64,000 nt of DNA. Origin: Candidatus Kapaibacterium sp. (lineage in GTDB: Bacteria > Bacteroidota > Ignavibacteria > Kapaibacteriales > UBA4661). Each line of letters starts with the position of its first letter. The stretch's first letter is position 1. The DNA lies in NCBI GenBank assembly GCA_025455065.1, contig JALONG010000010.1, forward strand, positions 1 through 64,000, read 5' to 3'. Under the pieces are notes generated by a model that did not search any database, was not told the DNA's origin, and was given only the letters and a program-made list of their open reading frames with translations. This document shows, piece by piece, positions 1 through 2,238 of this stretch. A program made the translations under genes and the position numbers.

Positions 1-110
1 AGCAATGTAAAAAACTCTCGCCCAGCGTCTTTGCCAAAACTATCAAAGAACTCTTTCAAAACCTCTGGAAAACCTAGCAAAATCCGTTAGGTACTAAAAC
101 TCAATTACAT

Positions 111-224
111 TAGGACTTTCGCAAATTTGACGGGCAAGGGGTCAAGAACCCTTGTTAAATAAAGACTTAGCAACAAGGGGTCTTGACCCCTTGCTATAAA
201 AAATGCACTTTTGCGAAAGTCCTA
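111..224. repeat. Palindromic element with TAGGACTTTCGCA termini, copy 1
   Basis: The outer arms are TAGGACTTTCGCAAA (from 111) and its reverse complement TTTGCGAAAGTCCTA (to 224). Inside them lies a second inverted repeat, CAAGGGGTCAAGAACCCTTG against CAAGGGGTCTTGACCCCTTG, so the whole unit folds into one long hairpin. The same outer termini, around a different interior, recur at 2051-2231. No open reading frame of note lies inside. The form is that of a MITE-like or REP-like element, which is an inference. Confidence 0.8.
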
Positions 225-227
225 TAC

Positions 228-370
228 ATCAATAGTCTGGACATTTTTGAAGAGCCTAGGTTTTATGCGGGTTTCAAGCCACGTTGTTTTTTACTCGAAA
301 TCAAGGTTTTATACGGCTTCCAGCAAAATTTTCAGAGAACCGTAGCAAAAATGTCCAGGCTATTGATACA
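228..370. repeat. Imperfect palindrome of about 140 bp
   Basis: The left arm ATCAATAGTCTGGACATTTT (from 228) matches the reverse complement of the right arm, which ends near 370, with one mismatch over about 22 bases. The centre holds less well paired sequence. It directly abuts the preceding palindrome and is probably non-coding. Confidence 0.65.
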
Positions 371-403
371 TAAGAGTTTTCGTACCGAGCAGTAGGATGA
401 ATT

Positions 404-526
404 GGAACACGGATTTGGAGGATCAAGAGGATAATGATGATATTTTGCCCAAATTTGCCACAAGTTTTCATTGCGATTCCGAAAGAAATCCTCTTTATCT
501 TCACAATCCGGGCTTCATCCGCGTCC
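404..526. repeat. Degenerate palindrome of the GGATTGA/ATCCGCG type
   Basis: The left arm has ACACGGATTTGGAGGATC followed by GAGGAT and GATGAT units. The right arm has the complementary ATCCTC, ATCTTC, AATCC and TTCATCCGCG units. The two arms pair imperfectly. It resembles the better preserved element at 30742-30862. Confidence 0.5.
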
Positions 527-686
527 CTTTTCGCTACGCATACCAACTACGAAAACTCCGATGTTGGTAAAGAACAGGGGCATCTACAACTATAAAGGAT
601 AACATTGCTGTCTGTGCAGTTTAGAAATACTCGAACCACTGGAGGTGTGAGCTGTGATAAAATATCATACGCGACAAACCGCGCTA
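527..686. other. Gene-free stretch, nothing recognised
   Basis: This stretch lies between the palindrome cluster and the 3' end of the LolC/E-like gene. No hairpin with a T-tract, promoter-like motif or convincing reading frame was seen in it. Confidence 0.5.
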
Positions 687-1949
687 TTACTGAAACCGTA
701 GCGCCTTCAACAAACGAATTCTTCCGCCGACGACCGCTGGGATAAATGCCGCAAGGGCGCTCATACTCACGCTTACGCCCAGCACGAGTGCGTAATGCTG
801 CCACGCAAATTCAATCGGAACGGCTGAAAGAAAGTAAATGCTGCCTTGCAAACGGATAATCTGAAATTGTGCTTGCAAAGCGCATAAAAACAGGGCTAGG
901 AGGCATCCTGCCAAACTCGCACTTGTGCCGAGAATCATCCCTTGCAGTAGAAAAATGCGCGTAATGGCGCGGCGTTGCATCCCCAATGCGCGTAAAATGC
1001 CGATAGACGAGATTTTCTGCACCACCGTCATAAGCAGCGTTGCAACGATATTAAACACCGCGACAATCGTAATCAAGCCCAAAACAAGCGGTACGGGCTG
1101 CTTTTGCAGGTCAATCCATGCGAAAATATCGTTGTAAATTTCATAGACCGTCCGCACAAAAAACGGATACCCCAAGAGTTTTTCGAGCGCAGCAGCGTTG
1201 TCGTAAATGTGCGTCATGTCGTGAAGCAGAATATCAAAGCCGCTTGCAGCATCGCTCGGAACACCAAACATCCGTGCTGCAAGCGCAAAAGGGATATAGA
1301 CATACAATTCATCAAACGAACTCATGCCTGTTTCGTAGATGCCGACGATAGTAAATTGCTCAATAACAGCGCTTTGGAGCGCTTTTTCCGGCACGGTGGT
1401 TTGATTTGTCCCCTCAGCAAAGGTTTGTGCCGTCGCTTGGTCGGTGGAATAAATGACCAATTTTTTCCCGATTTCGAGACCAAGTTTTTGCGCAAGTTTT
1501 GAGCCAATGACGATTTCACGGGCTTCCGGCGAAGAAAATGCGTAGTTGCCCGCCAGCATATTGGAACGAATACCCCTGACGGCGCTTTCCGTTTCAATTC
1601 CTCGCACCATTACGCCGTCAATAAAGGTTTTCGACCGGGCTAATCCCTCTGCTTCAATATACGCCGCAACCGCACGGATATTGGGCTGCGCGGCAATACG
1701 TTCCAGCACGGAGGTTTTATTCATCAAGACTTTTTTATTGAAACCGCGAACTTCGATATGCGCCGTAAATTTCACCGCATTGGCATTTAATTCGCGCTCA
1801 AATCCGCCTAAAATTGCTAGTGCTAAAATCAGCGCCATACTCCCCAAAGCAACGCTCACAAACGCTACAAGCGAGGCAAATGCAAGCAAACGCCCTTCAG
1901 CAGAAGAGGCTTGCAAATAGCGCCGTGCAATAAACAGTGTGAGGTTCAT
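687..1949 (-). CDS. LolC/LolE-like ABC transporter permease (FtsX family)
   Basis: Inner-membrane permease of the lipoprotein-releasing (LolCDE) type, 420 residues, close to the usual length. It starts at the ATG at 1949 (MNLTLFIARRYLQ). The N-terminal IARRYL motif is typical of LolC/E and is followed by a first membrane helix (about residues 22-48). A large periplasmic domain comes next, then a C-terminal FtsX domain with three helices (about 290-410) containing the GILRALGM coupling-helix signature. In the family these proteins work with the ATPase LolD to extract lipoproteins from the inner membrane. No LolD gene lies beside it here, so the ATPase must be encoded elsewhere. A macrolide-export MacB-like role is a less likely alternative. 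Confidence 0.87.
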   Translation of the reverse strand: MNLTLFIARRYLQASSAEGRLLAFASLVAFVSVALGSMALILALAILGGFERELNANAVKFTAHIEVRGFNKKVLMNKTSVLERIAAQPNIRAVAAYIEAEGLARSKTFIDGVMVRGIETESAVRGIRSNMLAGNYAFSSPEAREIVIGSKLAQKLGLEIGKKLVIYSTDQATAQTFAEGTNQTTVPEKALQSAVIEQFTIVGIYETGMSSFDELYVYIPFALAARMFGVPSDAASGFDILLHDMTHIYDNAAALEKLLGYPFFVRTVYEIYNDIFAWIDLQKQPVPLVLGLITIVAVFNIVATLLMTVVQKISSIGILRALGMQRRAITRIFLLQGMILGTSASLAGCLLALFLCALQAQFQIIRLQGSIYFLSAVPIEFAWQHYALVLGVSVSMSALAAFIPAVVGGRIRLLKALRFQ

Positions 1950-2050
1950 GGAGGAAAGTTGAGAAAAGTATGAAGTATGGAACAAGTGAACGTTAGGATT
2001 GAAGCCATGTACAGCATTTTTTTTCTGCTTGCATACTTCATCATTTATAC

Positions 2051-2231
2051 TAGGACTTTCGCAAAAGAAGGAAAGTACGCAGATTGAAGATGATTAGATT
2101 GATTGAAGATGATTAGCGTAAGTGTTATTTTTGTACAATGATAACGCGGTTTGGTTGCATCATTTTCATCAATTCCATCATCTTCAATCTGCGTCCACTA
2201 TCGCATAATCGGAGTATTCTGCGAAAGTCAT
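2051..2231. repeat. Palindromic element with TAGGACTTTCGCA termini, copy 2
   Basis: The unit starts with TAGGACTTTCGCAAAA at 2051 and ends with TCTGCGAAAGTCATA, almost the same termini as the element at 111-224. Its interior is different: ACGCAGATTGAAGATGAT near 2077 is perfectly complementary to ATCATCTTCAATCTGCGT near 2175. It sits between two minus-strand genes. Confidence 0.8.
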
Positions 2232-2238
2232 ATATACT

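Follow-up and report, generated by a model that had tools for sequence, protein, structure and literature searches.

Short inverted-repeat elements of Candidatus Kapaibacterium and its relatives enclose unrelated palindrome pairs between shared ends

We analysed 64,000 nucleotides of Candidatus Kapaibacterium sp. (assembly GCA_025455065.1, contig JALONG010000010.1, positions 1 to 64,000 of the forward strand), hereafter the window. Two short elements lie near its beginning. Both start with TAGGACTTTCGCA and finish with the inverse of TAGGACTTTCGCA, and they are made up as follows.

106..110: left direct repeat of element 1, TACAT (5 bp), read from the sequence
111..224 (114 bp): element 1, MITE-like, with TAGGACTTTCGCA ends and an AAGGGG-type core (class F); recognised by its ends, further copies and fold
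111..125, plus strand: left end of element 1, a perfect 15-bp inverted repeat with 210-224
134..194: core F of element 1; arms 134-156 and 172-194, each with a CAAGGGG-type palindrome
210..224, minus strand: right end of element 1, inverted-repeat partner of 111-125
225..229: right direct repeat of element 1, TACAT, read from the sequence
2046..2050: left direct repeat of element 2, TATAC (5 bp), read from the sequence
2051..2232 (182 bp): element 2, MITE-like, with TAGGACTTTCGCA ends and a GATTGAAGATGAT-type core (class G); recognised by its ends, further copies and fold
2051..2066, plus strand: left end of element 2, pairing with 2217-2232
2077..2194: core G of element 2; arms 2077-2103 and 2168-2194; a related core lies between GTAACTGGTCAGGT ends in genome G006
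2217..2232, minus strand: right end of element 2, pairing with 2051-2066
2233..2237: right direct repeat of element 2, TATAC, read from the sequence

A first-pass annotation had described two units with common ends around unlike inverted repeats, and the anatomy bore out both statements. The ends form the perfect 15-bp repeat in element 1 and are 88% complementary over 16 nt in element 2, and the inner arms belong to different classes, F (23 nt, 96% complementary) and G (27 nt, 89% complementary). The coordinates given for the units were exact for the first (111-224) and one base short for the second (2051-2231), which ends at 2232. Folded as single-stranded DNA, element 1 reached -39.9 kcal/mol (z -11.89) and element 2 reached -37.4 kcal/mol (z -7.86), each beating 200 of 200 shuffles. 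Both are short, have terminal inverted repeats and carry no transposase gene, as MITEs do. Element 2 is located between the start of a minus-strand open reading frame (1985) and the stop of another (2257).

Two further structures adjoin these elements. Positions 230-365, separated by 5 bp from the right-hand border of element 1, hold a 136-bp inverted-repeat element with CAATAGTCTGGACA ends and the flanking repeat ATACAT; among the fetched loci, contig C33 (L017/L044) has a similar copy equally near a TAGGACTTTCGCA-type end, and L010 has a third that is not next to one. Just beyond the right flank of element 2, positions 2239-2264 form a perfect palindrome, TGGCTTGAAGCCATGGCTTCAAGCCA, that overlaps the end of the reading frame stopping at 2257.

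Within the window alone, the evidence for shared ends was modest: the TAGGACTTTCGCA 13-mer, with up to two mismatches, had 5 matches against 1.58 expected, and one of 100 shuffles also reached 5. The further end pairs that the first-pass annotation had proposed to look for were found across the 5.6-Mb genome, where exact TAGGACTTTCGCA occurred 57 times (reversed control, 0) and GGACTTTCGCA 65 times (reversed control, 10); a pair of units having no further copies is thereby excluded. The 13-mer was present in all ten genomes searched from the bacterial family of the window organism, with 1 copy in three genomes and up to 70 in G001 and G006, against 0 or 1 for the reversed control. A 14-mer search with three mismatches did no better than its control (670 matches in total versus 747), and its usable rows are those with 0-1 mismatch.

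The fetched loci contained 126 elements with TAGGACTTTCGCA-type ends, 119 of them distinct after seven nested or duplicate rows had been dropped. Target-site duplications, a second proposed check, were 5 bp long: 78 of the 118 distinct elements having both flanks showed identical 5-bp flanks, and 40 of the 118 lacked an exact duplication. Before row removal the figure was 78 out of 125, against a mean of 1.04 out of 125 for shuffled partners, so that these elements, like MITEs, exist in several copies with target-site duplications. A collection scan, from which records of the window's own genome were possibly left out, yielded 43 elements, 42 in stretches of Kapaibacterium or Ignavibacteria MAGs and one in a Cytophagaceae MAG; exact 5-bp duplications flanked 29 of the 42 that had both flanks.

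After deduplication, the window's genome contained 31 AAGGGG-core elements, mostly 113-115 bp long, and five GATTGAAGATGAT-core elements of 180-184 bp; a minimum of four other GATTGAAGATGAT-core copies are incomplete or decayed (L033, L035, L103 and L104). The interior of element 2 had been assigned to a GGATTGA-like periodic family, with which the distribution of GATTGAAGATGAT agrees in part: the genome has 12 exact copies, each within such an element or an incomplete or decayed version of one, and in the window the exact sequence is confined to element 2. Copies of element 1 are up to 99% identical, which indicates recent spread. We rejected chance as the source of the shared ends, given the reversed control of 0 and the shuffled-partner control, and we likewise rejected two unrelated insertions with convergent ends, given the many copies with duplications.

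We sorted the interiors into core classes under labels set in this analysis: A (CATTCCGACnnnnGTCGGAAT), B (ACAGACAnnnnTGTCTGT; short motif ACAGACA), C (GCGGAATTTATTCCGC; short motif GCGGAAT), D (CGAACGGAAGTTCG), E (CTTCGACAnnCTCAG), F (CAAGGGGnnnnnnCCCCTTG), G (GATTGAAGATGAT) and H (CCCCCTAAAGGGGG). Seven of these unrelated palindromic interiors occurred between the same ends within the family of the window organism, and the eighth, H, in the Cytophagaceae MAG, so that the unlike interiors first seen in two units extend to many. The counts below cover the 119 elements and depend on which loci were fetched.

Window's own genome: F 31, G 5
G001: A 21, D 4, B 1, F 1
G006: B 18, C 6, E 1, F 1
G005: B 16, A 1
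G007: C 2, B 1, unclassed 1
G002: A 1, C 1
G003: unclassed 1
Cytophagaceae MAG: H 1
Five elements not tied to a genome: B 2, A 2, unclassed 1

One or two core classes dominated each genome, and 3 out of 119 elements fitted no class. The usual form was an inverted palindrome pair in an element of 112-127 bp in total, class G being longer. The flank GGAGTGCG is common to classes C and D, which possibly form a single lineage. The AAGGGG palindrome was also searched for across the phylum (395 genomes), where at least 16 genomes had a match among the matches listed, and where the form CAAGGGGTTGCAACCCCTTG was repeated many times. Several of the core palindromes are presumably widespread in other phyla. 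The element of the Cytophagaceae MAG (L210:2370-2486) is 117 bp long and has exactly the same 14-bp ends around its CCCCCTAAAGGGGG core; its occurrence outside the family may reflect transfer, convergence or a binning error.

The ends themselves proved to be of a known type. They match those of an IS701-type insertion sequence in sister species, so the terminal hairpin module put forward as new in the first-pass annotation is not new as far as its ends are concerned, and mobility would ordinarily be ascribed to a transposase acting in trans. At least ten G007 contigs break off within an insertion sequence with TAGGACTTTCGCA-type ends; among the four left and six right ends read, two pairs had matching 5-bp flanks, against about 0.02 expected (24 comparisons, 1 in 1,024). 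A search with one of these G007 ends led to G002, where the frame of an IS701-type protein opens 58 bp inward from such an end, whose first base pairs are TAGGGC, and is cut off by the end of the contig (L167), and where a full 342-aa copy is found at L168, its end region interrupted by another insertion sequence with a DDE_Tnp_4 protein. The 342-aa protein has Pfam DDE domains and scored 364.6 bits for NCBIfam NF049921 (IS701 family; cutoff 250). G002 also holds a complete sister insertion sequence (L193:1492-2602) with TAGGACTTACGAAAA ends, AAATT on both sides and a 350-aa frame, whose transposase scored 362.9 bits for the same model (cutoff 250) and is 51% identical to the 342-aa protein.

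By these scores both partner transposases belong to the IS701 family, and their duplications are 5 bp instead of the 4 bp characteristic of it. Since the protein is named IS701 by NF049921 despite the 5-bp duplication, we call the element IS701-type. The autonomous TAGGACTTTCGCA-ended form was present in pieces, with its two ends on different G007 contigs and the G002 contigs cut; the insertion sequence that was whole is the sister with TAGGACTTACGAAAA ends. The matching transposase that had been proposed as a check was located in sister species and was not found among the 131 contigs of the window's own assembly; multi-copy insertion sequences are easily lost from assemblies of many contigs, which makes this absence uncertain. 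The first-pass annotation had set its proposal against termini belonging to a known IS family with its usual interior: the IS type is indeed known, and the interiors are not those of that insertion sequence.

Some of the interiors belong to a second mobile system. A search for Y1 genes in ten genomes returned 13 matches, two of which, in the window's own genome, lie among the core palindromes: for the gene at L338 the flanking palindromes are of class B (at 59 and 569, tagged GTAG), and the gene at L345 has class C palindromes on both sides. The two proteins scored 92.3 and 104.2 bits for NF047646 (REP-associated tyrosine transposase; cutoff 80). Because RAYT genes of this genome are flanked by the B and C palindromes, as in REPINs, classes B and C are REP sequences, and elements with B or C cores join two unrelated transposition systems. 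Core B also has the abundance of a REPIN, its palindrome occurring 542 times in G006 and 554 times in G005 (control, 0), often in doublets. Core C had three matches in three 400-kb samples, two of them inside TAGGACTTTCGCA-type ends.

The cores of the window itself were not seen to be flanking a RAYT: neither F nor G lay beside any of the 13 Y1 matches in the ten genomes, class G being searched by exact motif only, and one F palindrome lies about 1 kb from a Y1 gene (L347). In the window's genome, 41 of the 43 F palindromes fall within these elements or their remnants, a count that takes in remnants cut at contig ends or lacking an end (C97, C112 and C114:222432). The remaining two are at L249, by eye with degenerate GGTTCT-type ends, and at L250. 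As to the RAYT genes, the class-B-flanked gene of L338 (contig C58) stands in one 518-aa open frame with RecG helicase sequence, and the open frames that hold the Y1 matches at L344 (G006; 1,060 aa) and L339 (G007; 997 aa) are bordered on each side by class B palindromes.

Several cores also occurred between other ends. We scanned stretches of four genomes de novo for 14-bp ends with up to two mismatches, duplications of at least 5 bp and lengths of 55-260 bp; G000, G006, G005 and G001 (464, 400, 400 and 184 kb) gave 7, 6, 22 and 21 rows, some being shifted duplicates of one element. In G005, core B was framed by GGTGCTAAATGATT ends with an 8-bp duplication, by CTTTGTACACGACAAAAC ends with a 9-bp duplication in three elements (L183, L235 and L304), and by TAAGGTTGTGGACA ends with a 6-bp duplication; in the window's own genome it was framed by GAGATTATACGG ends with a 5-bp duplication (L316:6701). 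Core F occurred between TAGGACTTACGAAAA ends with 5-bp duplications in L086, L094 and L102 and in four more elements without; the pattern for these ends was loose and also matched TAGGACTTTCGCA elements, and we used only the seven rows reading TTACGA, including the three with the duplication. Between GGTTCTAAATGATTTCAGTTGG ends, core F had an 8-bp duplication in L254 and none in L255.

Core G lay between GTAACTGGTCAGGT ends in five G006 elements, three of them with 8-bp duplications, one of which is a T run. In a two-sequence blastn comparison with one of these elements (L285:13061), the core G of the window aligned in two segments, one of 42 bp at 88% (E 4e-11) and one of 37 bp at 89% (E 6e-9). 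The GTAACTGGTCAGGT ends also occurred in G005, around another core, CGTCGGGCGGC, in six elements, and around a less closely related G-like core in L302. One result speaks against framing by shared ends: of the 35 core-B doublets in 400 kb of G005, 15 were flanked by an inverted repeat matching at 12 or more of 14 positions, but 6 of 35 mismatched pairs were so too, partly because different copies share ends; many G005 core-B doublets were unframed or decayed. A CCCTCTCCC-type core was also seen at two further G005 loci, L298 and L307, framed by two unlike ends (ACTCGCCTTACGCAC and TTGAAGTTTAGATAAA) and with repeats at the flanks.

The same ends thus hold many cores and the same cores lie within several kinds of ends, and this shuffling is the pattern that an explanation has to meet. 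We think it probable that both window units are non-autonomous MITEs. An IS701-type DDE transposase acting in trans would move them, recognising their TAGGACTTTCGCA ends and leaving a 5-bp target duplication, and their interiors would be interchangeable palindrome pairs, not remnants of the insertion sequence. The anatomy supports the opening step, in which the ends would serve as substrates of a transposase supplied in trans and insertion would duplicate 5 bp; that this enzyme moves the window's own copies is suggested by the match with sister species. A hairpin doublet would then get between two ends, whether it inserts into a short element or neighbouring ends come to bracket it, and the composite would amplify as a unit, which would account for one or two cores dominating each genome. 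Cores F and G of the window presumably came to lie between the ends in the same way as the others. The first-pass annotation had spoken of a module that captures other palindromes; the unrelated interiors between the same ends, some of them also between other ends, agree with this, and the capture itself is what we infer from them.

These elements could instead be ordinary MITE subfamilies, one IS701-type element having repeatedly given short derivatives with differing interiors and the cores never having been exchanged. The dominance of one or two classes per genome is what few founding events predict, and core F in the window's genome is almost confined to these ends. Independent deletions of an insertion sequence would not, however, place classes B, F and G within other kinds of ends that have target duplications of their own, nor palindromes B and C beside RAYT genes, and we regard this account as improbable. 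Still less credible is a single ancestral element whose hairpins diverged in sequence and kept their structure: layout and size are alike across classes, but the classes match palindromes found outside these ends and are therefore not private drift products.

For interchangeable cores, two routes of capture come into question. In the bracketing route, a possible one on which we remain doubtful, neighbouring IS701-type ends flanking a palindrome pair would be used together and mobilise whatever lies between; palindrome pairs would be caught because they are common between genes. Such use of ends fits L059, where an end 20 bp further out was used and TGAAG stands on both sides of the 134-bp unit, L232, where 7 bp separate two elements whose cores differ, and L156, a 190-bp form with a repeated half, a second right end and AATTT on both sides. 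It fits less well with the scarcity of non-palindromic interiors (3 unclassed out of 119, in a survey that looked only below 260 bp), and the regular size, mostly 112-127 bp, calls for a further cause. Insertion, by which a RAYT would put a REP doublet into a short IS701-type element that was then amplified, appears similarly doubtful to us. The class C pair does run from GGAG to CTCC, about 7-12 bp from the ends (L229 and L248), in the same form as the pair beside the L345 RAYT, and a 22-bp unit of two ends back to back occurs at L050. That unit, however, sits in an A run, so its 5-bp repeat means little; the unit order of core B inside these ends is opposite to that of most stand-alone doublets, which the plain entry of a standard doublet leaves unexplained; and no RAYT accompanied F or G among the Y1 matches.

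MITEs, REPINs and IS701 elements are known kinds. The available text of the review PMC10969869 describes IS-derived MITEs of prokaryotes as short, with inverted ends and target duplications, without a transposase of their own and presumably moved in trans. The window elements are alike in being short, with inverted ends, target duplications and no transposase, and differ from the MITEs of that text in having one end type with many unrelated cores and cores common to several end types. QMITE2 of Coxiella burnetii (PMC5896051), another MITE with inverted ends and direct repeats, includes a GTAG REP, which is noted in the review as an IS1111 target; it has one REP and one end type there, in contrast to the several cores and several end types described here. 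BrickBuilt of Porphyromonas gingivalis also has another kind of repeat as its interior, a minisatellite (PMC4596501); it is a tandem repeat, with no swapping described in the text available, and here the interior is a palindrome pair. Like REPINs, B and C are inverted palindrome pairs and flank RAYT genes of the window's genome, but the accessible portions of PMC3116915 and PMC3733652 describe no REPINs inside IS-type ends, where our cores lie, and F and G have no known RAYT. IS701 elements, according to the excerpted text of PMC2266710, almost all make duplications of exactly 4 bp; the partner transposases of our ends resemble that family in scoring above the NF049921 cutoff, whereas the duplications here are of 5 bp and the window elements have no transposase. 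In the open-access literature searched we found no description of cores exchanged between IS ends.

MITEs are usually seen as deletion remnants of one insertion sequence, and REPs as the business of RAYTs. We tentatively entertain a broader idea, namely that these are combinatorial, chimeric mobile elements, in which RAYT-copied hairpin cores are repeatedly fitted with ends from several unrelated DDE insertion sequences, which lets them ride on more than one enzyme, ends and cores evolving as separate selfish modules. If cores and ends do reassort in this manner, the unit of selection would not be the whole element, and REP-like palindromes would gain a route to spread with whichever transposase is active. 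The question bears on the origin of non-autonomous elements whose interior resembles no insertion sequence.

The window's genome also contains altered forms of these elements. At L044, L060 and L080, and at L074 and L078, type-1 elements are broken mid-way at contig ends, seemingly by two kinds of insertion sequence, with the inner borders CAATGTCATCAACTTAAG and ACCAATTTGAGTTGAC. In the 22-bp units at L050 and L062, two TAGGACTTT-type ends are joined back to back; as one of the units is embedded in an A run, it could be a terminator-like hairpin.
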